64,000 bases of DNA, from contig JAEEZY010000015.1 in NCBI GenBank assembly GCA_016292015.1, forward strand, positions 62,001 through 126,000, read 5' to 3'. Positions 7,601-36,961 of the stretch are shown one piece after another. Numbering within the stretch: the first letter of the stretch is position 1; the number at the start of each line of letters is the position of its first letter. This DNA is from Bacteroidales bacterium (GTDB taxonomy: Bacteria; Bacteroidota; Bacteroidia; Bacteroidales; P3). Under the pieces are notes generated by a model. It was not told the DNA's origin. It made no database searches and worked only from the letters and a program-made list of their open reading frames with translations. The position numbers and the translations under genes are program-made.

Positions 7601-9116
7601 CAGACATATCCAACACGGAGTCCTTTATGATGAGGTCCAAATCGCATATACGGTCATTGAGTTCAGCGTTGAGTTGGGCGTAATCGATATTGTTACCCAC
7701 AAGACTTGTGTTATTCAGTTTTGCCTCCAGTTTGGCTTTCATGTCGTCAAAGCTGCTCCATCTTGCCTCTGCCGATATGTCAAATCCTGCATAACTGACC
7801 CAGTCGTTCTTTGCTATGGATGGGAGGTCAATTCTTTTCGATGAGAGCCACACTTTTCCCTGCGACAGCCTTTTGCCGTTGGGGCGCTGTGAGCTGACGG
7901 CAATCAGCTGACCGCTGACGCTGCCCAGCGCAGTGCTCACGTCTATATTGGAGAAACATTGGTTCGCTCCGCCGACCAAGTCGGCTGTTACATCCAGTGT
8001 GCCGAGTTCTTCAAATAACTCGGTGCTTCCTATGTTCAGTTCCCCTGGGTGGTTTATAGACAGAAGATCTTCGATGTCGGTACGGAATTGGTGTAGGTGA
8101 ATGTCAAAGAAGGTTCCATCCGTATAGGGCAGTCCCACGGCTGTTCCGTCCATATACAGGTGACTCTTCCTTCCGAAGTCAACCCTGAAATCTTCAACCC
8201 TCAGGTTTGCCACAGGCCCCGTTACATGCCCTTCGATTTTCACGGGTGTGTCGCATCCCCAGAGCGACGGAGCCCAATAGGCTGCGTCAGCCATAGAGAG
8301 GACATTGCCTGTTTTGAAGGTCACGTCCATATCGACACTGTCGCAGTACCAGTCTAACGAGCGCCAACTGTCATAGACCAGGTGCACATCGCTCAGCATA
8401 TTCATCGTCTCGGTCTGCAGCTGCATCTCGGTCACATGTATCCCCCTTCCCGAAACGTCCACATTGCCCGCCAGTTTCTTCATCCTCCATCCTGACCGCT
8501 CCACGGTTGACATCTTCACTATCTTACACCTCACGGCATCGTCTTCCACTTTCAGGTCGATAATGTGCGCATTGATAGAATCCATGTCCATGTTCGCCAC
8601 GTCCACTCCGTGCTTGCGGTTTGCATAGTAGGGAATGGGTTTAAGCGTCATTTTGTAACGCATGTTGTCGAGCACAACGCTCTTTATATCGACCACAAAC
8701 GGCCCATCCTTTTCTTTTTTCTTCTTCTCTTTCTTGTGGCTCCGCTCGCGGTAGTAGTCAACAATGTACTTGAAACTGTTATTCCTGCCCCATGCTGTAA
8801 GGTGGAACGTGGTGTTCTGAATACGAACGCTTCGCATCTTAATCCCGCCGTCGCGTATCGGCATGCCGTTGAAGCGGCACGCAATCCTTCCGGCTTCCAG
8901 CACTGTGTCGTTACCTTCCGGCGATACCAGCAGCACATTGCGCAGAATTACATGGTTGAACGGGTCAATGTGGACTGATCCCACTTTTACGGTCCCGCCC
9001 CATTCGTGGCTGAAATGACTGCCTATGGCTGAACCGATAAGCGATTGAACTAACGAGTAGTTCACCAGCGCGACCAGCACATAGATCGCCAACGCCATGC
9101 CGGCCACCACACGCAA
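4674..9116 (-). CDS. tamB: TamB-like translocation/assembly module protein
   Basis: This is a 1480-residue inner-membrane-anchored, periplasm-spanning protein of the TamB/DUF490 family, in the wider AsmA-like lipid-transfer superfamily. An N-terminal hydrophobic anchor (about 2-25) is followed by an AsmA-like start (HFSHEWGGTVKVGSVHID), a short Lys/Glu-rich patch near 130-140, and long beta-rich repeats. The last third carries the typical TamB C-terminal signature: GDYRIADGNIKLDLLS, GSIGEARLDVNAIYS, SVVSLTGPLNSPNVNFDIRLP and LLVRGKFY. Proteins of this kind are thought to move phospholipids or help insert outer-membrane proteins. No tamA lies beside it. The length is normal for Bacteroidetes members. 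Confidence 0.9.
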   Translation of the reverse strand: MRVVAGMALAIYVLVALVNYSLVQSLIGSAIGSHFSHEWGGTVKVGSVHIDPFNHVILRNVLLVSPEGNDTVLEAGRIACRFNGMPIRDGGIKMRSVRIQNTTFHLTAWGRNNSFKYIVDYYRERSHKKEKKKKEKDGPFVVDIKSVVLDNMRYKMTLKPIPYYANRKHGVDVANMDMDSINAHIIDLKVEDDAVRCKIVKMSTVERSGWRMKKLAGNVDVSGRGIHVTEMQLQTETMNMLSDVHLVYDSWRSLDWYCDSVDMDVTFKTGNVLSMADAAYWAPSLWGCDTPVKIEGHVTGPVANLRVEDFRVDFGRKSHLYMDGTAVGLPYTDGTFFDIHLHQFRTDIEDLLSINHPGELNIGSTELFEELGTLDVTADLVGGANQCFSNIDVSTALGSVSGQLIAVSSQRPNGKRLSQGKVWLSSKRIDLPSIAKNDWVSYAGFDISAEARWSSFDDMKAKLEAKLNNTSLVGNNIDYAQLNAELNDRICDLDLIIKDSVLDMSATGKMAFPKVDDHRYSIDIDLAQADMGRLKLMKCDSICTLTSHLQADLSGKKSAIPTGYAWVSNTRLERDGKRLNIDNLNITASEENQKKRLTLSSDIVNVTASGYFDYSDLPIIIRKFRHDFTPNYWQRSIKTPTENEMAAIADANIDIDLRWSDRRKQIHFFMPSLNIAEGTTLSARYNHTESLNMVLRSDSVSIGSVAFHGIGVTSRNRGERLHLAADISELALSGKGAVDNLRVHISSGKEGAGIAMRWDAAPGAIETKGDLAFEMMSDSTDNLISIIRPHFFLNGEQWTLSKRGDVSFNKSHIDANEVELANGDQSLVISYHHTTDRSNDNVQAQFTDVNITTLSDLFLEGSGFAASGSINGDGSVLWVPGSKSPYIKANLMVDSCMVNRHALGDMNLRINHDIERRRLHLFVNSELEESYHLSHPLQASGYIDFKDTVTSLNIAANFERFDLEALSPLLKSFSSRFEGFLTGDITVNGSLKKPQILGKAWVQNGLINIDASNVAYLFDDTINFTNNRIRFNKFNLRDQFGNTGQITGNIDHNGFSDITINLALSTNRLLVYNSQAPSASGTLFAELSGSVRGPLSALDINGSARTLSGSTLTVPLSSQKNISSTDFVTFVSDDDDLRNDDNQPVKKKKNISSTINLGLVLTPDLKLKIPMDMSGVGLDISGSGSGELTVNLAPQKDIQIVGDYRIADGNIKLDLLSVVSKDFRIEEGSSVEFPGSIGEARLDVNAIYSQRVELSSLMGADENAIAQKPVPVESVVSLTGPLNSPNVNFDIRLPNADQSIQDEVFAYIDRSNERDLMNQTLYLLVRGKFYNANQASNPTTTENSLTSSGIAMVANSLGSVISGMIEFVDIEFDYSAATASRSEQYSVGINKEWNKFYIESTLGYGGYDRELTSNEALANNIVGDVLVGYKFNPRLHMFVFNRSNTNDYTRFEMPYKQGVGLKYTRDFDKWKDLFKKRRRK

Positions 9117-11111: not shown

Positions 11112-12797
11112 TTAGTCTTTTACTAAGCGGACGGCGAAACCGAAATATCGGTTGTTGTATCTCATACTCACATTGTCGCTGGAAAACCCTTCGTTGCAAG
11201 CAATCATATCATTGTTGTACGACGAAGACCAATAATAGCCATATGTTTCACCACCGCTAATACTGTAGCCATCTCGGTATCCTGCAGTGGGCAGAAAGAC
11301 TGCACCTGCGGCCTCCATCTTCTGCCATTGATCGGTTGTGTATGTATTGGTGGCAAATCCGTTGTCATAACCAGCTGTAAAAGTCAAACCATTTGGCAAA
11401 GTCCAATCGTCAGGTAATATAATTAACCCATTGTGGTTTCCGCCTATAGTCGCCAAACCGTATTTGCCATCGCGTGATGAACTGCTACCAAGCAGGTATT
11501 GCCACTCCTCTTTTGTAAGCGTGCGCCATTTGCCTGCTTTGTTGCCACCATTGGTGATTTTGTTATACACACCCCAGTCGGCTTTTGCATAATCGCCAGT
11601 AAGGTTGTTTGTCCCACTTCCTCCAGGCTGATAATCGGTGCCTTCTGTATTTGTACTCCAAGGTTGGTAAGCGTTTGCTCCGCTACTCCAGCCGCTTGTG
11701 CCCCAACTGAAGAGGTCTATCCAGCCGTTGTAATCCTCAGCGATGTTGGCGTTGGCATCGCCTATGTAGAGGTATTGTTTGGCGGCGAAGGCCCATGTGT
11801 TGGTGGCGGCGTTGTAGCGGAGGTTGCCTTTGGAGAAGTGGACGGTACGGCCGTCGGCTACGGAGAAGGTCTTATAGGAAGCACCCTCGAGGTCGAAGGC
11901 TTTGGAGACATTGGGGTTCTCGTCAGCCACGAGTCGGACGGAGCGGCCTGTGTAGTGTCCGCCTTCGATCACGATAACATCGCCGCCAGCGGCACCAACG
12001 CCGAAGCTTAGGTAGTACGCATTGGCTTCATTTTTGTACGACGATGACCAATAGCTGCCGACCTTGCCAACGCCGTTCAAATCTGTGACGTGCCGCCAGC
12101 CAGCAGAAGGTAAGAAGACTGCTCCTGCGGCTTCCATCTTTTGCCACTGAGCCATTGTGTATGTGTTGGTGGTATAGCCATTGTCATATCCAGTTGTGAA
12201 GGACAAGCTAGTGGGTAAAGTCCAGTCATCAGGTAGAAGTACCAAGCCTTTATATATATCACCTATCGTTGCCATACCGTATTTGCCGCTACGACCTATC
12301 AGGTATACCCACTCTTCTTTAGTCAGAATACGCCATTGTCCGGCCTTGTTGCCACCATTGGTGATTTTGTTATACACACCCCAGTCGGCATTGGCGTATT
12401 CGCCTGTAAGATTGTTGGTAGCGCTGCCACCTGGGTAATAGTCCGAGATTGTCGTGCTTGTACTCCAAGGCTGATAGGCGTTTGCTCCGCTGTTCCAGCC
12501 AGAGGTGCCCCAACCGAAGAGGTCAATCCAGCCGTCGTAGGTTTCAGAGATGTTGGTATTGTCGGAGCAGGACATATTGTACTGACGGAGGGCGAAGCGC
12601 CATTTGTTTTGGGCGGCGTTGTATTGGAGGTTGCCACGCGAGAAGTGGACTTTCTTGGTGTCGGAGACGGAGAAGGTCTTATAGGAGCGACCGATGGCGT
12701 CGAATCCGCCAGGACGGTACCAGTCGTCGTCCTGCGAGAAGGCGCTGGGGGTGAGGATGAAAAGGGTAAGCAAGAAAAAGAGGGCTATGCGTTTCAT
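11112..12797 (-). CDS. Secreted two-module FISUMP-like (major paralogous domain) protein
   Basis: A signal peptide (about 1-21, cleavage near AFSQ) leads into two tandem copies of a roughly 265-residue module. Each copy begins Y-K-T-F-S-V-[SA]-D and continues with VHFS[RK]GNL, GWIDLF[GS]WGTSGW, GANAYQPWST, ADWGVYNKITNGGNKAG, LTKEEW and AGAVFLP[ST]AG, ending in VRLV. This arrangement resembles the FISUMP family (Fibrobacter succinogenes major paralogous domain), often surface or secreted proteins of unknown function. The two modules are close enough to suggest recent internal duplication. A related single module ends the protein at 47911, and a tail relic lies at 10590. Confidence 0.75.
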   Translation of the reverse strand: MKRIALFFLLTLFILTPSAFSQDDDWYRPGGFDAIGRSYKTFSVSDTKKVHFSRGNLQYNAAQNKWRFALRQYNMSCSDNTNISETYDGWIDLFGWGTSGWNSGANAYQPWSTSTTISDYYPGGSATNNLTGEYANADWGVYNKITNGGNKAGQWRILTKEEWVYLIGRSGKYGMATIGDIYKGLVLLPDDWTLPTSLSFTTGYDNGYTTNTYTMAQWQKMEAAGAVFLPSAGWRHVTDLNGVGKVGSYWSSSYKNEANAYYLSFGVGAAGGDVIVIEGGHYTGRSVRLVADENPNVSKAFDLEGASYKTFSVADGRTVHFSKGNLRYNAATNTWAFAAKQYLYIGDANANIAEDYNGWIDLFSWGTSGWSSGANAYQPWSTNTEGTDYQPGGSGTNNLTGDYAKADWGVYNKITNGGNKAGKWRTLTKEEWQYLLGSSSSRDGKYGLATIGGNHNGLIILPDDWTLPNGLTFTAGYDNGFATNTYTTDQWQKMEAAGAVFLPTAGYRDGYSISGGETYGYYWSSSYNNDMIACNEGFSSDNVSMRYNNRYFGFAVRLVKD

Positions 12798-28808: not shown

Positions 28809-29927
28809 TCACAGTCTCTTCATCCAAATCTCAAGGAACTTGTCATAGACCTGATAGCACCCATTTTCTTGTGTCACCAAGTCCTTGTCCAGCAAGGCGT
28901 TTACCGCCGATTTAACCGCACTTGGCGACGTAAGGCCATATTGTTTAGCAAATTTGCCCGATGTGATTTGAGAAACCCTCCCCATCGCACATATTGCCTT
29001 CAGTACGTGACATTGTTTTTCAGGAAGTTGATACATCAAATCCTCGTATGTCGGACTTGAAAAGTCAATGATATAATCAATCGCCGGCTGCACTTCTCCG
29101 ATGCTGCAGTGCCCATTGTCGGCTGTCCGCATAAAAAGCACATTCATCACCTTTTGCAAATAGAATGTAATGCCGTCGAACATTGCATACACCTCCGCCA
29201 CAACCTCTTTGTCAATCGTTTTGCCAGATAGTTCGAAATGCCTTTTACAAAACTCCCAATATTTGTCCAACGCTATGGATTTGAGGTTCATCAGCGTGAC
29301 GCTCTGATAAAACGGACGGTTCGGCGAAACGAACATTGCCCCCATCAAATGCCGCTGTGAGCCCATAAAGACAAAGTTGGCGTTGCTGCAATACTGCACA
29401 TAGGTGCGCAAGTCTGCCTCAACATTTGAATCAGAGTATTTCAGGATCTGCTGAAACTCGTCTATTGCCACAAGACACGGCTTGTCGGCCTGTTGCAGAT
29501 ATTTGAAAATCTCGTCCAAAGTGTTACTTGGATTCGCTATATCCCCCACCGATACATTCCAAGACGGCTGACCAAACGCATCGTATGTTATTCCAGCCTT
29601 CAACGACTTTACAACATTCAAAAAATGCTCCCAATAACGCTTGCCCTTGGGTTTTAATGAATCAAGAATGGCACGCCCCATCTTGTTTACCATATCCGAC
29701 AACGATTTTGTCGAATAAATATCAATGATAAAAGTATGATACCTTTTTTTCACTTCGTCTTGGTTAAAACAATGGCGAATAAGGTCAGTCTTACCATAGC
29801 GGCGAGGAGAAATCAGAGCAATATTGTTGCCATTTTGCAGCCATTTAATTATATCTTTTGTTTCTTGAACACGGTCGCAGAAATAATCTGAACCGGCATA
29901 ACCATTTGTGACAAAGGGATTTATCAT
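28809..29927 (-). CDS. Archaeal-type AAA ATPase (ATPase_2 family)
   Basis: I use the ATG at 29927 (MINPFVTNGYAGSDYF), giving 372 residues. The start INPFVxxGYxGxxYFCDR and the P-loop segment ALISPRRYGKTDLIRHCF (Walker A R-R-x-G-K-T/S, about 34-50) with Walker B CLVAIDEFQQIL are hallmarks of the archaeal ATPase_2 family (PF01637-like), common in Bacteroidales. The arginine-like GSQRHLM sensor and a C-terminal winged-helix region (IKAICAMGRVSQITSGKFAKQYGL) are also visible. The role of these proteins is mostly unknown; several sit in mobile or defence neighbourhoods. No partner gene is adjacent on its strand. Confidence 0.85.
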   Translation of the reverse strand: MINPFVTNGYAGSDYFCDRVQETKDIIKWLQNGNNIALISPRRYGKTDLIRHCFNQDEVKKRYHTFIIDIYSTKSLSDMVNKMGRAILDSLKPKGKRYWEHFLNVVKSLKAGITYDAFGQPSWNVSVGDIANPSNTLDEIFKYLQQADKPCLVAIDEFQQILKYSDSNVEADLRTYVQYCSNANFVFMGSQRHLMGAMFVSPNRPFYQSVTLMNLKSIALDKYWEFCKRHFELSGKTIDKEVVAEVYAMFDGITFYLQKVMNVLFMRTADNGHCSIGEVQPAIDYIIDFSSPTYEDLMYQLPEKQCHVLKAICAMGRVSQITSGKFAKQYGLTSPSAVKSAVNALLDKDLVTQENGCYQVYDKFLEIWMKRL

Positions 29928-30109
29928 AACAGTGACTTTTATTTTCAATGCAAATATACACATTTTGTCATAAAATGATAATCATAAAATGACAATGTTG
30001 ATGGTTTTGTCTGTGGTTAGTGGGCAGTAGATTGTTGGCAGCAAAGTTAAAACACACTCACACTCAGACAACCTAAGATTAACACAACCTCTTAATCAAA
30101 CATTTTTCG

Positions 30110-30264: not shown

Positions 30265-30550
30265 AATGTGGAGTAATCCAATACCTTATCTGTTGTTACA
30301 CCCAAAGGGAGTCCAAGCCCGACTAGTGAGGATAGGGTTAAATGGATTGGCTCCACTTTCTTTGTTGTTCAAATCTTCGGCCGAGCCACTGACACAAAAC
30401 CAACAGGACCACTCATCATATTTTTCCATCTTTATCCACTTTCCCGAAAACAACGACTATATCATTGTACTTTTGCATCTCGGAAACCTAAAAATCCTGC
30501 GACGCAGAAATGCAATGAAACCCAATAGGCATAAGTATAAAAAAAATGTG

Positions 30551-30558
30551 TATATTTG
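30551..30558 (+). promoter_or_regulatory. -7 element TATATTTG of the accessory operon
   Basis: It matches TAnnTTTG, and AAAGCGCATTT recurs 41 bp downstream as after the promoter at 30110. The first credible gene starts at 30888, giving a leader of about 320 nt. Confidence 0.5.
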
Positions 30559-30715
30559 CACTCGGTTGACGAGAGTAATGTCAGCCGCCGCAAAGCGCAT
30601 TTGAACGGATTCGTCGTGGAAATTTGCCAAAATTCAACTTCAGAATAGTCCGTGATACTTATGCCTTTTGCTGTAGAAATATGTTGACGTCCGTAACGGG
30701 CAAAGCATACTCACA

Positions 30716-30797
30716 GCATGGGACAAGGTCGAAAGGATTTCATTCTGAAAGGTCAGGCAAAACCTCCACACGGGAATCCACCGACATCGCCCCATGC
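30716..30797 (+). ncRNA. Candidate structured RNA (leader or small RNA)
   Basis: Four nested helices form one long imperfect hairpin: GCATGGG 30716-30722 with CCCATGC 30791-30797, GTCG 30728-30731 with CGAC 30782-30785, GGATT 30735-30739 with AATCC 30775-30779, and AGGT 30750-30753 with ACCT 30762-30765. Nested order and regular internal loops are unlikely to be chance. The 3' side is followed by CTTCTTTATTT, so it might act as an attenuator. I match it to no known family. Confidence 0.4.
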
Positions 30798-30887
30798 TTC
30801 TTTATTTATGCTCATATCATCGAAAAACGAACACATTAACACAGTAAAAAACAAAACGCAATAGAAAAATAACAAAATCCAAAAACC

Positions 30888-31106
30888 ATGCTTTATCGAG
30901 TAACAGTCAAACAGAACAAACTCAACGCCGGCATCCGCATTGAACGTGGCATGTCCGTTGATGTCGTGACCAACAGCATCACAAATCCCGTAACCACCAA
31001 CGGCGGCCAACCAGTAGCCGACGCTTTCATGCGGATCTACGGAATAGATATCCGTAAAGCAGAAGCTCTAAACATGGTCTATCTTGATGTTCAAAGAATC
31101 GGATAA
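30888..31106 (+). CDS. Small DUF6140-like protein
   Basis: The 72-residue protein (MLYRVTVKQNKLNAGIRIER..., NGGQPVADAFMRIYGIDI) matches my memory of a Bacteroidetes family called DUF6140; I could not check this. It has no signal peptide, membrane segment or cysteines and is predicted to be a compact alpha/beta domain. It is the first gene of the same-strand cluster, 39 bp before the first paralogous small protein, and follows the long structured leader. Confidence 0.7.
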   Translation: MLYRVTVKQNKLNAGIRIERGMSVDVVTNSITNPVTTNGGQPVADAFMRIYGIDIRKAEALNMVYLDVQRIG

Positions 31107-31145
31107 AAAACAAATAAATTTTTTATTAACTAAATTCTTATTATT

Positions 31146-31598
31146 ATGATTAACCCTATCAACATGGAAACTGGAGGCATTTTAGAAATGCTCCAAGAAC
31201 TCAAAGAAAAACTGGGCCCCGTTATCGAAAAGGGTGTCCAAGAGGTAAAAAAGAAATTAATAGAGCTGTCAATCAAGGTCAAGGACGAGCTCTTACCTCA
31301 ATGGATTGATCTGGTGAAACGTCTTTTCAATGCAAAAAACATCAAGTCTGAAAATGTAGAAGAACTTACGATGGCAGACTTGATAAGCATAGCCAAGAAG
31401 AACATAGTTGCCGGCAGCGACGGTGTGGCAGCATATCGCCAAGTTAAAGACTCTGATATTTGCATTTATCTGTCATATTGCAAAGGCAGAGAGCTTCTAT
31501 CCGAAGAAAACAACTGCTATGTGATAATCAAAGCAAAGAGTCTTGCCCAAGATGTTAATGAGATGTTTAAGGAATCCGATTTAATAATACTAAACTAA
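31146..31598 (+). CDS. Tandem paralogue 1: helical N-terminus plus shared C-terminal domain
   Basis: The 150-residue protein opens with about 65 residues of charged amphipathic helices (LKEKLGPVIEKGVQEVKKKL). The remaining 80 residues end SDICIYLSYCKG...IIKAKSL...FKESDLIILN. That ending matches the pattern [VI]x[IVL]xL/G...x[IV][IV]A...x-[ED]-[LV]-[IV]-[IV]-L-[NS] shared with the next proteins. A start at the second Met (residue 7) is possible. It is A/T-rich like its neighbours. It is the most divergent of the four and I do not recognise the family. Confidence 0.75.
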   Translation: MINPINMETGGILEMLQELKEKLGPVIEKGVQEVKKKLIELSIKVKDELLPQWIDLVKRLFNAKNIKSENVEELTMADLISIAKKNIVAGSDGVAAYRQVKDSDICIYLSYCKGRELLSEENNCYVIIKAKSLAQDVNEMFKESDLIILN

Positions 31599-31624
31599 TT
31601 TAATTATACTAAACTAAAAATAAA

Positions 31625-31978
31625 ATGGCAATATCAGATTTTTTTGAAAGCATTATAAATGCATTTAAAGCTTTTTTCGAAAAAGTAAAAGGCATAATCA
31701 AAAGTATAATTGCAAAGATTGTCAACTTTGCCGAACAGATTAAGAAATGGTTTAAAAACCTTTCACTTATAAAAGGGCGGCATATACCGTTTTTAACAAA
31801 AAAGAACGAGTTTCGAGAAATGCTAAAAAAAGCTCCCGTAAAAAACATCGGCATATTCGAAGGTGTATACGATGAACAAACCGACGAAATAACGGAAGTC
31901 CGATATATCGCAGCAGATGCGATAGACGAGGAAACTCGCAATGTTATGGGAAATCAAGAACTTGTTGTATTAAGTTAA
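31625..31978 (+). CDS. Tandem paralogue 2: cationic amphipathic helix plus shared domain
   Basis: The first 45 residues of this 117-residue protein are an unusual cationic amphipathic helix rich in Phe, Ile and Lys (FFESIINAFKAFFEKVKG, then IIKSIIAKIVNF and KKWFKNL), of a kind that would lie on a membrane. The C-terminal 70 residues share with paralogue 3 the pattern L-x-L-x-K-G-x-x-I-P-F-x-x-x-x-N-x-F, then VxNIGIFEGVYDEQTDEI and the terminal ELVVLS. No signal peptide is cleavable. The gene starts 26 bp after paralogue 1. Function unknown. Confidence 0.75.
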   Translation: MAISDFFESIINAFKAFFEKVKGIIKSIIAKIVNFAEQIKKWFKNLSLIKGRHIPFLTKKNEFREMLKKAPVKNIGIFEGVYDEQTDEITEVRYIAADAIDEETRNVMGNQELVVLS

Positions 31979-31989
31979 TATTAAATATT

Positions 31990-32400
31990 ATGAAAGTTAT
32001 AACATGGATAATTATTGGCATAGCGATCACTGGTTTGGGGTACTACGCGTACAAGAGAAAACAAGGATCAGGGAAATCCCTTATTGACGCATTAACCGAA
32101 GTTGTAAAGAAACAAGCACCAACATTTACGACAGAGTCCTGCGAAGTTCTAAAAAAGGACGAGGTGGTTGCTTATTTTAAGTCGTTACAACTAACCAAAG
32201 GGAGTGACATTCCATTTGTTGCCAGAACGAATAAGTTTTCTACAATTTGCAATATCCCAGATGGCGAATACAATGTTGCGTTGGGTGTGTATAATGAGTC
32301 GTTAGATGAGATATCGTCATTAAAAATTATTGTCGCACAAAAATGGGATCCTGTTTTCGCAACAATGATTGGCAAAGAAGATGTAATTGTGCTTAATTGA
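31990..32400 (+). CDS. Tandem paralogue 3: single-pass membrane anchor plus shared domain
   Basis: The 136-residue protein has an N-terminal transmembrane helix (VITWIIIGIAITGLGYYAY, about 3-21) followed by Lys/Arg, which predicts a cytosolic C-terminus. The soluble part carries LQLTKGSDIPFVARTNKF, the core NVALGVYNESLDEISSLKIIVA and the terminal EDVIVLN, clearly homologous to paralogue 2. It starts 11 bp after that gene. An RNA hairpin follows before paralogue 4. Function unknown. Confidence 0.78.
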   Translation: MKVITWIIIGIAITGLGYYAYKRKQGSGKSLIDALTEVVKKQAPTFTTESCEVLKKDEVVAYFKSLQLTKGSDIPFVARTNKFSTICNIPDGEYNVALGVYNESLDEISSLKIIVAQKWDPVFATMIGKEDVIVLN

Positions 32401-32405
32401 TCATT

Positions 32406-32443
32406 AAAGGGGGAGAACATTACACCCTCCCCCTTTGTAATGT
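32406..32443 (+). promoter_or_regulatory. Intergenic hairpin with a mutually exclusive alternative fold
   Basis: A 10-bp perfect stem (AAAGGGGGAG 32406-32415 with CTCCCCCTTT 32427-32436) encloses ACATTAC (32417-32423). That loop segment is perfectly complementary to GTAATGT (32437-32443) just beyond the stem. The two helices cannot form together with zero linker, so this is a possible two-state switch 13 nt before the start of paralogue 4. No T-tract follows the stem. Confidence 0.5.
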
Positions 32444-32456
32444 AAAAAACAAAATA

Positions 32457-32747
32457 ATGTTAGACGTTATATTACAAATATTAGGAGGCGCCTTGTTAGG
32501 TGGCGCAGCTGCCGCAGCGATTACGCTGACGGTAAGCTATTTTATTGACAAACGAGCTATCAAAAAAGAAGCTCAAAGAAAATTCAAAGAGGCTTTTCGC
32601 GCTGAAATTCTGGAGAAGAGTAAACATGCTGTTAATGTTGGTATTTTTGACCATAATGATGACAAACTTGGCGAATTGGAAATAACATCTGAAAAAGGTG
32701 TTGATCAATCTCTTTATGAGCATCAAATAATTTATTTATATGATTAA
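32457..32747 (+). CDS. Tandem paralogue 4: glycine-zipper membrane segment plus shared core
   Basis: I start at 32457 (MLDVILQIL), since the longer frame includes the intergenic hairpin. The 96-residue product has a membrane segment with glycine-zipper character (LGGALLGGAAAAAITLTVSYF, here trimmed to its core GGALLGGAAAAA), then a basic stretch and the shared core NVGIFDHNDDKLGELEI ending in HQIIYLYD. Glycine zippers occur in pore-forming and packed membrane proteins. The stop overlaps the AAA+ gene start by eight bases, indicating tight translational coupling to the ATPase. Confidence 0.72.
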   Translation: MLDVILQILGGALLGGAAAAAITLTVSYFIDKRAIKKEAQRKFKEAFRAEILEKSKHAVNVGIFDHNDDKLGELEITSEKGVDQSLYEHQIIYLYD

Positions 32748-34053
32748 AATCAATAATGACCTTATTGTTGACAGTACCGATATGGTGCTGTTGCAGAATG
32801 TTGAAAAAGACTTAGAGTCTTTTATCAAAAAATTATTAATTGAAAACAGCCCGGATTTATCGGTTATTCTACAATTTGAACTGTTTGCCAAAACCGAAAA
32901 TTCAATCGTTATTACAGGCAATGATGGATTCTCGATACCGGGAAGTTTGGAGATAAAAAACAAAATACAAAAATACCTAACATCAGAACAAGCGTTGACT
33001 CCAATACTGAAAAAGTATTCATTGGAAGTAAAATGCACATATAGAATTACAGAGAAAAAAAAGGATAAAAAGGAGGATTCGATACAATTCTTGCCTCAGC
33101 ATCCAAGATATAATTTTGAACAAGTAATACTCCCAGACGAAACCAGAAAGGAAATATACGATGCTTTGAAAGTAATACAATATAAAAAAGTGGTATATGA
33201 AGATTGGGGATTCGAGGAGTGCGACCCAATACCGCGTAGCGTGATAAATTTCTATGGAGACCCAGGTACTGGCAAAACCATGTGCGCCCATGCCATAGCA
33301 GGCAAATTGGGTAAAATGCTTCTTTCTTTGAACTATGCTGAAATTGAGTCGAAATATGTCGGCGAAGCACCTAAAAATTTACAGAAAGCCTTCGATACTG
33401 CAAAACAAACAGATTCTGTACTTTTCTTTGACGAAGCCGATTCTTTTTTAGGAAAAAGAATACAAAATGTGACACAAGGTTCGGAGCAGGCACTCAATTC
33501 GCTCAGAAGCCAAATGCTAATTTTACTGGAAGAACATAGTGGTGTCGTCATATTTGCAACGAACTTGGTTTCGAACTTTGATAAGGCTTTCGAGTCAAGA
33601 ATTCTAAAACATATCAAGTTTGAATTGCCAAATCACGAAGCAAGAATAGCCATAATCAAAAAGATGATACCATCTAAATTACCTCTAGCATCACCCTTAG
33701 ATGAAACTTTACTAAACCAATGCTCCGATATTTTGGACGGATTTTCCGGAAGAGAAATCAAATCAGCCATATTGGAGCTACTCTTATCTAAAGTTGACGA
33801 TAACCATAACGATTTCTTGTTTAACGGAAATGATTTCATAGAAGCGTTCGAGCATAAAAAGGAACAAAAGAAAAAACTTAAAGACGAGGAAACTCGAATT
33901 CAAAAGGAAAAAATTTTGAGAAAATTGTCAGAAATAAAAGAAGAAAAAGAGTTGAAGGAAGCACAGTCAAAAGAACAAGAAGAGAGCAATGACAATTCAA
34001 GTCCTGCACAACAAACAGGAAACCTGTCAACAAAAGAAGAAAATACACTTTGA
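32740..34053 (+). CDS. SpoVK/CDC48-type AAA+ ATPase
   Basis: The 437-residue protein has a unique N-terminal domain (about 1-105), then one AAA+ module: Walker A GDPGTGKT at 173-180, a pore-loop-like segment SKYVGEAPKN at about 205-214, Walker B VLFFDEAD at 227-234, sensor 1 VVIFATNL, an Arg-finger region FESRILKHIKFELP and sensor 2 FSGREIKSAI. It ends in a long Lys/Glu coiled-coil tail (about 365-437). The module resembles the SpoVK/Ycf46 branch, near Vps4 and CDC48. There is no C-terminal hydrophobic-Tyr-X motif for proteasome docking. It presumably remodels or extracts a protein partner, and the membrane paralogues just upstream are candidates. Confidence 0.88.
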   Translation: MIKINNDLIVDSTDMVLLQNVEKDLESFIKKLLIENSPDLSVILQFELFAKTENSIVITGNDGFSIPGSLEIKNKIQKYLTSEQALTPILKKYSLEVKCTYRITEKKKDKKEDSIQFLPQHPRYNFEQVILPDETRKEIYDALKVIQYKKVVYEDWGFEECDPIPRSVINFYGDPGTGKTMCAHAIAGKLGKMLLSLNYAEIESKYVGEAPKNLQKAFDTAKQTDSVLFFDEADSFLGKRIQNVTQGSEQALNSLRSQMLILLEEHSGVVIFATNLVSNFDKAFESRILKHIKFELPNHEARIAIIKKMIPSKLPLASPLDETLLNQCSDILDGFSGREIKSAILELLLSKVDDNHNDFLFNGNDFIEAFEHKKEQKKKLKDEETRIQKEKILRKLSEIKEEKELKEAQSKEQEESNDNSSPAQQTGNLSTKEENTL

Positions 34054-34084
34054 ACAATTAACAAATAACAACAAAAAAAATCCT

Positions 34085-34306
34085 ATGTTACGAGGAACAT
34101 GTACCTTTAAATGTGATAACTGCGGAGAAAAATTTATTGGGTTAGACATAGAGTGTAATGCAATGATATTCAGCGCACCTGTGAAGTGTCCACACTGCGG
34201 CAGCATGCACACAAGACCTCGGTTTTCAAGTAAGGGTGTTTACGAAAAAATTTGGGAATGCATAGACAAACAAGAAAATGACAGTGATACTATTGCATCA
34301 GATTAA
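34085..34306 (+). CDS. Zinc-ribbon protein A
   Basis: I start at 34085 (MLRGTCTFKCDNCG), giving 73 residues; the longer frame overlaps the AAA+ gene out of context. Two Cys pairs, CDNC and CPHC, spaced about 25 residues apart form a typical zinc ribbon, followed by GSMHTRPRFSSKGVYEKIW. It is about half identical to the protein at 35285. The binding partner (DNA, RNA or protein) is unknown. It lies 31 bp after the ATPase gene on the same strand. Confidence 0.75.
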   Translation: MLRGTCTFKCDNCGEKFIGLDIECNAMIFSAPVKCPHCGSMHTRPRFSSKGVYEKIWECIDKQENDSDTIASD

Positions 34307-34356
34307 AGCCATCAGTCTTTCTCATTTCATAACAATACCACTACTAAAATTCCCTT

Positions 34357-34749
34357 ATGAATCTTAATTTACCTTTTTCCGAAATCAATGAGATAATCGA
34401 CAAGAAGTTGATTATTTTGCCGTGGTCTTTAGTTTACAAAGATCAACACACAGTACAGCTTAAGAGAAAAATCCGAATACCACTCACCAAGGATATTGAT
34501 GTGTCGGTCGAACGTATTGATGGTTCGGACATCTATCTCAACGTTGACAGCGGAGCTATCAACAAATTGTTGGATATTGTTAAGAACCTTTCTTTCGAAA
34601 GTCTTAATATGATTGAACTTCTTGACAATCGTATCATTTTGCACCTTGACAAGAACAAGAAGATTGCGCATACGATGGAACAGATAACTCTGCAAGACAT
34701 CTCGTTCAACGAGGAGAACGCAGTAGTCAAATTCATGCCTAAATTATGA
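34357..34749 (+). CDS. Hypothetical protein, 130 residues
   Basis: The protein is mixed alpha/beta with no cysteines, signal or membrane segment. It contains IRIPLTKDIDVSVERIDGSDIYLNV and a Leu-rich helix (INKLLDIVKNL), which may be a small beta-barrel or lipid-binding-type fold, but I recognise no family. Its stop overlaps the next gene's ATG by four bases, so the two are translationally coupled. It is the last clearly A/T-rich gene before composition returns to that of the surrounding chromosome. Confidence 0.68.
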   Translation: MNLNLPFSEINEIIDKKLIILPWSLVYKDQHTVQLKRKIRIPLTKDIDVSVERIDGSDIYLNVDSGAINKLLDIVKNLSFESLNMIELLDNRIILHLDKNKKIAHTMEQITLQDISFNEENAVVKFMPKL

Positions 34750-35144
34750 AACATAGAGATTTGGAATTTCCGCAGAATGCGCGGCGGACTTATACGGCGG
34801 TGAAGCATGCCTTTGAGACTTGCGGGGCTTTTCACCGTGTGAAATGCGACGACAGTACTTTTGTCATCACCGCGCGTCACGGCATGTCGCTGCTGGCGCT
34901 GGGTGAGAAAATCAAGGTGCGGGTGGTGGCGACCAGCACGCAGTCGAGCAAGGTGGTGGTGGAGTCGGGTAACCAGATTCCCATCAACCTGCTGAACATT
35001 GGTAGCAACAAACGCAACGTGTCGAACCTATCGGATTGGATCTCCAATCAGGTATATCGCCTCTGCAGCGACGAGGAACTGCACATCAAACCGCCAGAGA
35101 TAAAACTTCGCCAGAACGACATCCGCCTGCGTGAGGATAAATAG
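34746..35144 (+). CDS. Hypothetical protein, 132 residues, coupled to the preceding gene
   Basis: The protein begins MKHRDLEFPQNARRTYTAV and has a conserved-looking stretch (FVITARHGMSLLALGEKIKV, VVVESGNQIPINLLNIGSNKRN) followed by an amphipathic helix and a charged tail. The layout recalls small DUF1499-like or lipid-binding domains, but that is not more than a hint. Its higher GC content contrasts sharply with the preceding gene, although the four-base overlap indicates co-expression. Confidence 0.7.
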   Translation: MKHRDLEFPQNARRTYTAVKHAFETCGAFHRVKCDDSTFVITARHGMSLLALGEKIKVRVVATSTQSSKVVVESGNQIPINLLNIGSNKRNVSNLSDWISNQVYRLCSDEELHIKPPEIKLRQNDIRLREDK

Positions 35145-35203
35145 GCTTAGAACAGGGAGAATGTGTGAGTGCTTGATTGCGTTAGTGCTTGAAATGCTCT
35201 AAA

Positions 35204-35255
35204 CTTCTATTTTCTTCTATATTCGGAGATTGGTAAGTATTTCGTTGTATTTTTG
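35204..35255 (+). promoter_or_regulatory. Promoter with CTTCTAT direct-repeat element (copy 1)
   Basis: CTTCTATTTTCTTCTAT (35204-35220) is two CTTCTAT half-sites one helical turn apart. The -7 box TATTTTTG at 35248-35255 lies 28 bp from the end of the element. It drives zinc-ribbon protein B. Confidence 0.6.
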
Positions 35256-35284
35256 CAGCCGTAAACCACAAATAACACACATCA

Positions 35285-35488
35285 ATGGTAAGAGGTAAAT
35301 GTTTTTTTATTTGCGACAAGTGCAAGAAGATCTTCCGGGATCTTGACATTGAGTGGATGGCTACTACATATTCGACCCCCGTGGAATGTCCTCAATGCGG
35401 CTCGTACCACACAAGGCCAATCCTTTCGCTTAAACCCGTCTATAAAAGAATCTGGAAATCGATGGACGAGCAGTCGTCCAACAAGTAG
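35285..35488 (+). CDS. Zinc-ribbon protein B
   Basis: The 67-residue product has Cys pairs CDKC and CPQC about 25 residues apart and shares with protein A the frame M-x-R-G-x-C, LDIE, GSxHTRP and VYxxIW. The paralogues bracket the two unknown genes at 34357 and 34746. It has its own promoter and its own strong terminator, so it is a single-gene transcription unit. It shares a 17-bp upstream element with the next gene. Confidence 0.78.
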   Translation: MVRGKCFFICDKCKKIFRDLDIEWMATTYSTPVECPQCGSYHTRPILSLKPVYKRIWKSMDEQSSNK

Positions 35489-35512
35489 TATCCTTCGCAA
35501 AAACGACATCGG

Positions 35513-35544
35513 CAAAGGCCGCAAACTTTTGTTTGCGGCCTTTG
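35513..35544 (+). terminator. Strong hairpin terminator after zinc-ribbon protein B
   Basis: A 14-bp perfect stem (CAAAGGCCGCAAAC/GTTTGCGGCCTTTG) is closed by a TTTT loop. The following T-tract is weak, but the stem is the most stable in the region. Confidence 0.75.
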
Positions 35545-35594
35545 CTCTGCTTTGGCAAGAAGGAAATTTGAAAAATTAATAATCATGAAGATTT

Positions 35595-35646
35595 CTTCTA
35601 TTTTCTTCTATTTTGCGCGGAGGTGTTGGTTTTTGGTGTATTTTTG
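35595..35646 (+). promoter_or_regulatory. Promoter with CTTCTAT direct-repeat element (copy 2)
   Basis: The same 17-mer as at 35204 occupies 35595-35611, and the -7 box TATTTTTG starts at 35639, again 28 bp from the element's end. It drives the Ntn-hydrolase-like gene. Confidence 0.62.
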
Positions 35647-35695
35647 TCGACGCAAAACAAACATTTTTTTCATCAGACACTAAAATATTTCAACT

Positions 35696-36961
35696 ATGAC
35701 AGCTTTAGTAGGCATTTTAAACAAGCGGGCTGCGGTGATGGCTGCCGACAGCGCCGTGACCGTTACCACCAACGGCAGGACAAAAATTTACAACTCGGCC
35801 ACCAAGATTTTCAGCCTCTCGAATGAACATCCTGTGGGGGTGATGATCGACAGTTCGATGGAGTTTATGGGTACTCCGTGGGACGTGATCTTCAAACTGT
35901 ACCGCGACCGCAAGGGCGGCAAGGAATACAAGACCTTGAGGGGCTATGTGGACGGTTTCCTGGATTTTCTACGCTCGGAGAATTATTTCAGCGACGAGGA
36001 TTCGCGAGAGAGTTATTTCATAAGCGAACTTAGGGAGTTTTACGACACTGTGAAAGACGAGGCGATAGATCAATACCGAGACGAGATGAATGAACGCACC
36101 AAGAACGGTGAGCCGGATGAGGATGAACAACGGGCGTTTGAAATACTGAAAGAGACAATCGAGGAGTTTATAGAGAACAGCAAGGACGACGAGCCCAATC
36201 CGGAATTCAAGAACTACTCGATTGAAAGTATGCGTAAATTCACATCTGAAGCGTTCGATAGACTGATGCAGATATGCGAGGAGGATGGATTGCCGACTAA
36301 CATGCGCGACTTGTGGGAACGTGGATTCTACGCTAAACTGTGCGGCCGCTACTTTCCTATCGACACCGAGTTGGTGTTTATGGGTTATGGCAGCGACGAC
36401 ATTTATCCGTCACTCCTGTCGATGAGGATATCAGGTGTAATAGACCGCCGGCTGCGCTACTATATCGACGAAGAAGGCGCCGAGACCATCACAAACAACA
36501 ACAGCGCAAGCATCTGCCCCTTCGCACAGACGGATGTGATGATGTCGCTGATGAAGGGCATGTCGAACCAGATGTACAGGCATGTCGATAACTGTAAGAT
36601 CTCCGCAATACTGGAGACAAAACAAAAGATGATGGACGCCATGAAGGAGGCTGGCGCAACAGAAAAGATGCTGGAAACTGTGGACGACATCGACCTTACG
36701 GAGGTGGCGGACAATTTCGACAAATCGGTAAATGAGTTCATCCATGACAAATATGTTGAAGGCATTGTGGATGCGGTGGACTCGTTCAGCATAGAGGAGA
36801 TGACGAACATGGCGGAGAGCCTTATCTCGGTGACGAACCTGCAGCGCCATATCTCTTCGACGGAGGAGAGCGTGGGAGGCCCTGTGGATGTGGCGGTGAT
36901 TACGCGGTCGGAGGGTTTCGTGTGGGTGAAGCACAAGGAGTGGTTCAATGCTGCGAAGTGA
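35696..36961 (+). CDS. Proteasome/HslV-like N-terminal-nucleophile (Ntn) hydrolase, 421 residues
   Basis: The start MTALVGILNKRAAVMAADSAV matches HslV and proteasome beta subunits. If Met is removed, Thr becomes residue 1 (the nucleophile), Asp is exactly residue 17 and Lys in SATKIF is residue 36, close to the usual Lys33. The next strand VGVMIDSSMEF follows as in the family. At 421 residues it is about twice the usual size: an acidic helical insert (about 95-200, rich in Glu/Asp) and a C-terminal helical region ending in VDVAVITRSEGFVWVKHKEW add to the core. It has its own promoter. A protease is likely, but substrate and partner are unknown; the AAA+ ATPase 1.6 kb upstream is a candidate. 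Confidence 0.7.
   Translation: MTALVGILNKRAAVMAADSAVTVTTNGRTKIYNSATKIFSLSNEHPVGVMIDSSMEFMGTPWDVIFKLYRDRKGGKEYKTLRGYVDGFLDFLRSENYFSDEDSRESYFISELREFYDTVKDEAIDQYRDEMNERTKNGEPDEDEQRAFEILKETIEEFIENSKDDEPNPEFKNYSIESMRKFTSEAFDRLMQICEEDGLPTNMRDLWERGFYAKLCGRYFPIDTELVFMGYGSDDIYPSLLSMRISGVIDRRLRYYIDEEGAETITNNNSASICPFAQTDVMMSLMKGMSNQMYRHVDNCKISAILETKQKMMDAMKEAGATEKMLETVDDIDLTEVADNFDKSVNEFIHDKYVEGIVDAVDSFSIEEMTNMAESLISVTNLQRHISSTEESVGGPVDVAVITRSEGFVWVKHKEWFNAAK

Follow-up and report, generated by a model that had tools for sequence, protein, structure and literature searches.

The question raised by the locus described here is whether its genes form one system or several. The locus lies in a stretch of 64,000 nucleotides from a Bacteroidales bacterium (contig JAEEZY010000015.1, positions 62,001 to 126,000; this whole stretch is referred to as the window, and coordinates follow its numbering), taken from a source genome of 2.54 Mb in 35 contigs. 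It contains an AAA ATPase gene, preceded by four small genes, p1 to p4, for membrane-type proteins, and followed downstream by a gene for a proteasome-like N-terminal nucleophile (Ntn) hydrolase. A sequence-only reading had joined all of these into one accessory locus, in which membrane-tethered proteins would be handled by the ATPase together with a dedicated peptidase. Our analysis divides the locus into two things: a cassette, p1-p2-p3-p4-AAA (31146–34053), which recurs as a conserved, ordered operon, and a separate Ntn gene. The motor of the cassette belongs to a known class, and its partner set is undescribed and widespread.

The core genes follow one another on the + strand: p1 (31146–31598, 150 amino acids, aa), p2 (31625–31978, 117 aa), p3 (31990–32400, 136 aa), p4 (32454–32747, about 97 aa) and the ATPase gene (32740–34053, 437 aa). 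The open reading frame (ORF) of p4 opens at TTG 32397, but its true start is likely the ATG at 32454; p4 and the ATPase gene overlap by exactly 8 bases (32740–32747), as had been read from the sequence.

For the comparison of this arrangement, 336 confirmed relatives of the ATPase were available in the genome collection, and the best 80 loci were fetched with flanks of up to 10 kb, often less, many of the contigs being short. Of the 20 best loci (L031–L050), 18 show the full order p1-p2-p3-p4-AAA, so that the earlier proposal of an accessory pairing between the ATPase and small membrane-type proteins is borne out. A p1 relative lies 5' of the ATPase gene in 19 of the 20, the exception (L045) being truncated by the end of its contig; at least two genes of the p2/p3 type are found in 19, and one in L045; a p4 relative is found in 19, the place being taken in L047 by a 113-aa gene with a transmembrane segment that matches p4 with 12 bits only. 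Some loci have extra copies: L033 and L050 each hold a third gene of the p2/p3 type, and p4 is present twice in L045. In L031, the closest relative, the genes are colinear with those of the window over a DUF6140 gene, p1-p4-AAA, a zinc ribbon gene and u9 (companion genes that are described below), with no Ntn gene in its 12.8 kb.

Across all 80 loci, as counted with a simple ORF caller and with contig ends uncorrected, 55 ATPase genes have at least one contiguous gene of up to 200 aa that encodes a transmembrane segment, and 34 have at least two; the corresponding counts for 114 control genes drawn from the same loci are 26 and 8. A variant layout was observed in five loci (L056, L057, L058, L059 and L061), where a protein of about 725 aa, with no Pfam match in L056, the one scanned, takes the place of p1, and where the gene 3' of the ATPase encodes a small protein whose N-terminus is signal-like and which has CxxC motifs.

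The ATPase is matched by the Pfam AAA profile (PF00004, E 2.6e-28), in agreement with the SpoVK/CDC48 type that had been assigned to it. The residues of Walker A, the pore loop (KYxGE), Walker B and the arginine finger are invariant in an alignment of 22 sequences, taken from 120 listed homologues (another ATPase set comprised 63 of the 120 and 7 loci). The predicted model (predicted local distance difference test, pLDDT, 88) consists of an N-domain at about residues 1–103, folded from residue 12 to residue 103 as a helix, two strands, helices and a strand, followed by the AAA module and a long C-terminal helix (363–417). Foldseek matches the model with p97, the 26S and PAN ATPases and Vps4, chiefly through the AAA core; the best 50 matches per library are all AAA proteins, among which the N-domain finds no fold match. 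By its Walker A and B motifs, sensor, arginine finger and AAA fold, the protein is a classic-clade AAA ATPase of the p97/PAN/Vps4 group. In 58 genomes of the same genus, the best match has an E-value of 4.1e-31, with 33% identity over residues 117–358, and none of the matches listed exceeds 44%, so that these genomes hold no orthologue of the ATPase.

The four small proteins had been described as paralogues, and this applies to them unequally. Proteins p2 and p3 are clear paralogues (hhalign probability 99.8–99.9% in both end-to-end and local modes; besides the window protein, the p2-family alignment holds 64 homologues, out of 120 listed, and 18 loci). The relation of p1 to p2 is weak, at 61% end-to-end and 52% locally, while that of p4 to p2 and p3 depends on the mode: 4–9% end-to-end, but 45–59% locally over 32–44 columns. 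Since the similarity of p4 is local only, a common origin is possible, and the matched columns may be those of the membrane segment; p4 and p1 show no relation by hhalign. The N-termini differ: that of p1 is helical and amphipathic, that of p2 is a long amphipathic helix, and those of p3 and p4 contain one transmembrane segment each, as predicted by hydropathy. A hydrophobic tail closes nearly all relatives of the four proteins, of the types LIILK, LVVLS, LVVLS and VIYL from p1 to p4; in the window, the C-terminal domain of p1 ends in DLIILN and p2 ends in LVVLS. The model of p2 is weak (pLDDT 63) and places a helix at residues 3–44, strands at 78–83 and 88–94, a helix at 102–108 and a terminal strand, i.e. 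a hairpin-helix-strand domain after the N-terminal helix.

The cassette is carried on mobile elements and moves between bacteria. Within the order, members of the p2 family were found in 3 of 392 other genomes; these are the genomes of L049, L038 and L045, so that they add no new case, and a phylum-wide sample of 344 other genomes contains no member. Beyond the phylum, small tethered genes adjoin a related AAA core in records named as Akkermansia, Brachyspira, Treponema, Spirochaetales, cyanobacteria, selenomonads and Haemophilus; many of these distant records are metagenome bins, whose organism names may err. An AAA gene with 3–5 small "hypothetical" genes is found on plasmids of Comamonas (10 kb), Moraxella osloensis, S. 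elongatus PCC 11801 and Planktothrix, and in Moraxella phage Mcat5 the AAA gene is the last one, after a WYL regulator, where the record stops. Among the public-record matches of the ATPase, 5 of 9 from plasmids and 1 of 2 from phages were inspected, with annotated regions for 6 of the 11; searches of plasmid and phage records with p2 gave no match. In L040, a tmRNA gene (11227–11623) starts 143 bp after the ATPase ORF, and in L031 one is found about 5 kb away (8567–8966). A tmRNA gene is a usual integration site, and the two found here possibly serve as such.

The partners from distant lineages can be aligned with those of the Bacteroidales set position by position. Against the Brachyspira/Lachnospiraceae set, hhalign gives 98% for p4 and the fourth gene, 92% for p3 and the third, and 71% for p2 and the second; against the Akkermansia/Lentimicrobiaceae type, 92% for p3 and the third gene, 47% for p4 and the fourth, and 25% for p2 and the second; the best off-position pair in these comparisons reaches 12%. 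In further sets, hand-picked from loci already found, p2 matches five tandem proteins of the Planktothrix plasmid (95%) and tandem proteins of a spirochaete (97%), and a transmembrane protein of proteobacteria and selenomonads matches one protein of other cyanobacteria (89%). As these pairwise probabilities come from small alignments, we treat the matches across lineages as indications.

In at least 9 of the 80 loci, dynamin-type GTPases are encoded at a distance of up to 9 kb from the ATPase gene; five of these loci were identified with Pfam (L047, L051, L069, L085 and L071) and four by similarity to L071 (L072, L088, L091 and L093). Two dynamins lie directly 3' of the ATPase gene in L051 (E 2.9e-15 and 4.2e-20), L047 has three, and in L069 (E 1.4e-15) and L085 (E 5.9e-15) an upstream dynamin ORF overlaps the start of the ATPase ORF. 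In L071, a dynamin-like protein of 575 aa is encoded about 6 kb 3' of the ATPase (Dynamin_N 4.2e-7, DLP_helical 1.7e-7), beside a GTPase of 859 aa (MMR_HSR1 5.1e-10, Dynamin_N only 0.03), and homologues of both occur in the four loci that were found by similarity. The larger GTPase (L071, 14444–17023) and its relatives have a domain in common with the selenomonads' family of small ATPase partners, which looks as though this partner domain served to recruit effectors. Genes for WYL regulators occur at up to 5 kb from that of the ATPase in L036, L039, L049 and L052, in the viral contig L115 and in phage Mcat5.

Taken as a whole, the cassette is a self-contained mobile unit of one classic AAA ATPase gene and a tandem set for small, mostly membrane-tethered partners; its gene set, order, recurrence and carriage on mobile elements are shown, as is, in the loci and genomes searched, the lack of a link to the Ntn gene. 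Probably, though by no means certainly, the ATPase remodels a membrane-bound assembly of these partners. We infer the topology, the hexamer, the action on the tethers and the purpose of the cassette as follows. Proteins p3 and p4 would be anchored in the inner membrane by their single N-terminal segments, p2 would lie on the membrane through its amphipathic helix, and p1 would be peripheral; the small C-terminal domains of all four would point toward the cytosol and assemble there. The hexameric ATPase would engage them through its N-domain or its pore, and ATP would drive the pulling, disassembly or recycling of the assembly, much as ESCRT-III is handled by Vps4, or membrane clients by p97, with an altered shape or integrity of the membrane as the likely outcome. 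That the motor acts on its own four partners is likely because the operon is fixed, the partners carry membrane segments at their N-termini, the C-termini are conserved and the pore loop is canonical; the GTPase neighbours of some lineages point to membrane remodelling. The most plausible use would be to guard or alter the envelope in conflict with phages or mobile elements, or the response to envelope damage; sporadic, mobile carriage and the WYL regulators favour a conflict with phages or plasmids, and a role in defence is a possibility.

Several observations weigh against this reading or narrow its basis. First, of the 58 loci that had space on either side of the ATPase gene, 19 showed no adjoining small gene with a transmembrane segment, L031 and L040 among them through an error of gene calling, and a Lactobacillus plasmid (one of the five plasmid matches inspected) carries the AAA gene without small partners. 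Second, position-matched pairs between the two outer sets, i.e. Brachyspira/Lachnospiraceae and Akkermansia/Lentimicrobiaceae, fall short of significance, at 20% for the second genes, 9% for the third and 5% for the fourth; the first cyanobacterial set, for which two of the four loci were used, the other two being broken by the crude gene caller, matches nothing in the Bacteroidales set. Third, the model of p2 is too poor for a fold search. Fourth, seven of the nine GTPase loci are from selenomonads and thus not independent, the dynamin count is a lower bound from chosen proteins and has no base rate, and the window itself has neither a dynamin nor a WYL gene beside the module. Lastly, PADLOC found defence candidates among 93 flank proteins (three dynamins of the LeoA type, which fit the three of L047, three WYL proteins, three Cas3c, one reverse transcriptase and one AbiD), but a control of 93 proteins also yielded such candidates, so that no enrichment is shown; the flank set held 92 of 124 candidates and the second AAA protein of L039, the control 93 of 120, and the best 25 of 78 and 25 of 46 families, respectively, were considered.

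A bolder form of the same reading would make the cassette a bacterial counterpart of ESCRT-III and Vps4 built from unrelated parts, in which the tandem tethers form a membrane coat that is stripped or driven by the AAA hexamer, with dynamins as optional additions, in about six phyla and in the service of conflict with phages and plasmids; we consider this conceivable but rather doubtful.

Among the alternatives, the first is a role in envelope stress or in the quality control of membrane proteins, where the ATPase would clear or refold damaged proteins, the small proteins would be its adaptors, and phages would have no part. A set of membrane adaptors with an AAA unfoldase would fit such a role too, and AAA neighbourhoods with membrane partners have been proposed for envelope stress of the phage-shock-protein (PSP) type in a survey (PMC11237479). 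We still think this explanation unlikely: the sporadic occurrence of p2 (3 of 392 genomes), the 10-kb plasmid and the prophage end suit accessory or conflict cargo better than a housekeeping function.

An equally unlikely explanation is an abortive anti-phage module, in which infection would perturb the membrane or the tethers, the ATPase would be released, and the membrane would be disrupted, with the death of the cell. The mobile cargo positions, the WYL regulators and the occasional defence neighbours are consistent with such a module; a Pfam scan, however, recognises no toxic domain, and an enrichment of defence neighbours is, as seen above, not established.

The explanation that the sequence-only reading had favoured, i.e. 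an ATP-dependent protease system in which the ATPase extracts membrane-tethered proteins and delivers them to the adjoining Ntn hydrolase (35696–36961, + strand, 421 aa), has become very improbable. The two genes lie on the same strand, 1.6 kb apart, the core of the ATPase resembles that of the proteasomal ATPases, and the Ntn protein has the catalytic residues of a proteasome. The pair nevertheless fails the test that had been named for it, neighbourhood and co-occurrence in other genomes. No Ntn relative is found in the fetched flanks of the 80 ATPase loci; none is found in 19 searched genomes that carry the module (L050 excluded), a search with no internal positive control, although the same query matched the window genome elsewhere; and p2 is not found in nine Ntn-bearing genomes and records (five of the six other genomes and four phage or viral records), with the same lack of an internal control and the same match of the query to the window genome elsewhere (G172, a weak and partial Ntn match, was left out). 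In addition, Fuchs et al. 2021 (PMC8665760) report that they found, for the new homologues of the proteasome, no AAA+ partner that co-occurs with them. A coupled pair of the proteasome or HslUV kind is therefore rejected for the loci and genomes searched.

The sequence between the two genes also separates them. A hairpin of 16 pairs, one of them G-U (35511–35546), lies between zinc ribbon B (35285–35488) and the Ntn gene; it is terminator-like, without a clear T run, and was not reported by a simple terminator scan, but its region (35500–35560) folds with −32.3 kcal/mol (z −6.5), and none of 200 shuffles is equally stable. It is followed by a promoter-like box, TATTTTTG (35639–35646), which by its motif we take to be of the Bacteroidetes −7 type; the same box stands at 35248, before zinc ribbon B. 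The base composition differs as well: the low G+C content of the left part, 0.35–0.36 across 31–34 kb against about 0.5 in the surroundings, is as the sequence-only reading had it, but the content climbs to 0.45–0.50 across the Ntn gene, which is a first hint of a composite locus.

The Ntn gene is a stand-alone, phage-borne proteasome homologue that is unlinked to the module in the loci and genomes searched. The register of catalytic residues T2, D18, K37 and G48 (T1, D17, K and G47 after loss of the methionine) is conserved in an alignment of 121 rows: T in 114 of 114, D in 120 of 120, K in 120 of 120 and G in 118 of 120 rows with a letter. Ten of 21 members (20 of the 120 listed homologues and the window protein, the latter not among the ten) match PF00227 weakly, at E up to 1 and under the Pfam cut-off, the best at 0.0098, and there is a weak match to the archaeal proteasome beta chain (E 0.016); the comparison with the HslV profile is not significant (0.9%), so that the assignment as a threonine Ntn hydrolase rests on the residue register, the weak profile matches and the literature. 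By its description, the gene appears to fit best with PMI-4 (Fuchs, Alva and Lupas 2021, PMC8665760), which has the same Thr-Asp-Lys-Gly47 signature, a similar host range (Proteobacteria, Firmicutes, Bacteroidetes and phages, Table 1) and insertions that would suit the large size of the protein, 421 aa where proteasome beta chains have about 200; the 21-member alignment contains variable stretches, which may correspond to insertions after H1/H2 and between H3/H4.

The distribution of the Ntn protein is its own: its relatives number 3595 at an E-value of 0.001 or lower, and its gene occurs in 6 of 293 other genomes of the order. Matches were found in 13 phage and 10 plasmid records, and the annotated regions inspected for 8 of these 23, i.e. 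a streptococcal prophage, a satellite, a Providencia phage, a Porphyromonas phage and plasmids of Rhizobium, Ruegeria, Pantoea and Enterococcus, show no adjoining AAA ATPase of the module kind. Among the streptococcal elements (L135, 5001–6203; L136, 9297–10502), the Ntn gene is the last gene of the prophage Javan85; by position, it is near the end of the satellites Javan198, 468, 103, 106 and 109, and internal in the satellite Javan421. The end of a phage or satellite is a usual place for accessory genes.

The weakest alternative, an IetA-like defence ATPase of known type, is hardly credible: IetA is the best PADLOC match of the ATPase (E 2.6e-31), but the NCBIfam IteA model scores 88.6 bits against a cut-off of 510, over residues 121–394 only, and a Pfam scan of 14 window proteins finds no subtilase (IetS), so that membership of IetAS is rejected.

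The remaining genes of the locus are companions of the cassette, or neighbours of it. Between 30888 and 36961 there are 11 ORFs, all on the + strand and in the places that had been given for them, where ten genes had been counted. The DUF6140 protein (30888–31106, 72 aa) had been recognised correctly (PF19637, E 9.2e-34) and is an optional companion: 10 of the loci L031–L050 have a relative no farther than about 4.2 kb from the ATPase start. Zinc ribbon A (34085–34306, its true start likely the ATG at 34085) has zinc-ribbon matches under the cut-off, with zinc ribbon B as its paralogue; it is also optional, with a zinc ribbon relative in 4 of the 20 loci. The same holds for u9 (34746–35144, 132 aa, no assigned function), found in L031, L034, L037 and L039, in the last about 5.4 kb from the ATPase start. 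The gene u8 (34357–34749, 130 aa, no assigned function) overlaps u9 and has no relative in any fetched module locus, the gene at its place in L034 being dissimilar. Given the promoter-like boxes and the hairpin, the 11 genes are not one operon, and a single operon across all of them is rejected.

Some features of the surrounding DNA are added here. Near-identical sequences of 20 nucleotides (19 of 20) lie 5' of zinc ribbon B (35204–35223) and 5' of the Ntn gene (35595–35614). A perfect inverted repeat of 18 nucleotides (29949–29966 and 30543–30560, 576 nucleotides apart), with TATATTTG inside each half, looks like two matching divergent promoters, one toward a minus-strand gene of the ATPase_2 family (28809–29963) and one toward the DUF6140 and module genes; the ATPase_2-family gene has no relative among the module loci. 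A search of 28–40 kb with Rfam gave nothing at the gathering threshold, and no direct repeats marking the ends of an island were found. Ten stretches of relatives were picked by way of the TsaD gene; nine of them contain r312, the neighbour on the right, and the tenth stretch ends there; no gene of the locus is found upstream of TsaD in the sequence taken, and the left-hand genes differ, leaving the left end of the insert undefined.

If our reading is true, AAA-driven remodelling of membrane-bound assemblies is common and mobile in bacteria, beyond the relatives of ESCRT, and plasmid genes that are annotated as "ATP-binding protein" and "hypothetical protein" can be tested as one unit. The appealing lead of an ATPase-proteasome pair, on the other hand, lacks support, and the Ntn gene becomes separate, phage-borne cargo.

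Lastly, the cassette can be set beside known systems; in the open-licence literature of PubMed Central, no description of this gene set was found among the matches listed, and no paper on DUF6140. With IetAS, the ATPase shares the AAA core, but no protease partner is seen among its scanned neighbours. With LeoABC, the link is a dynamin of L047, encoded at 5 kb from the ATPase and matched by PADLOC with LeoA/LeoBC; it is an optional neighbour of the cassette and is absent from the window. The core fold and motifs are shared with p97/CDC48 and PAN, from which the ATPase differs by its one AAA domain, an N-domain with no fold match among the listed hits, a long C-terminal helix and the absence of a linked proteasome partner. 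Membership of ESCRT-III is rejected, as Pfam gives, at E up to 1, no Snf7 match in p1–p4 and no MIT match in the ATPase. ESCRT-III-type partners have N-terminal membrane helices and conserved C-terminal tails, as p1–p4 do; the partners of the cassette differ in having a mini-domain that contains a hairpin and, in p3 and p4, single transmembrane segments. The nearest described case is that of bacterial AAA ATPases of the Vps4 type that have membrane partners, as reported in the PSP survey (PMC11237479); the likeness to these PspA/Snf7-linked ATPases, and to Vps4/CdvC with ESCRT-III, is that of a single-ring classic AAA ATPase encoded beside small membrane-binding proteins.

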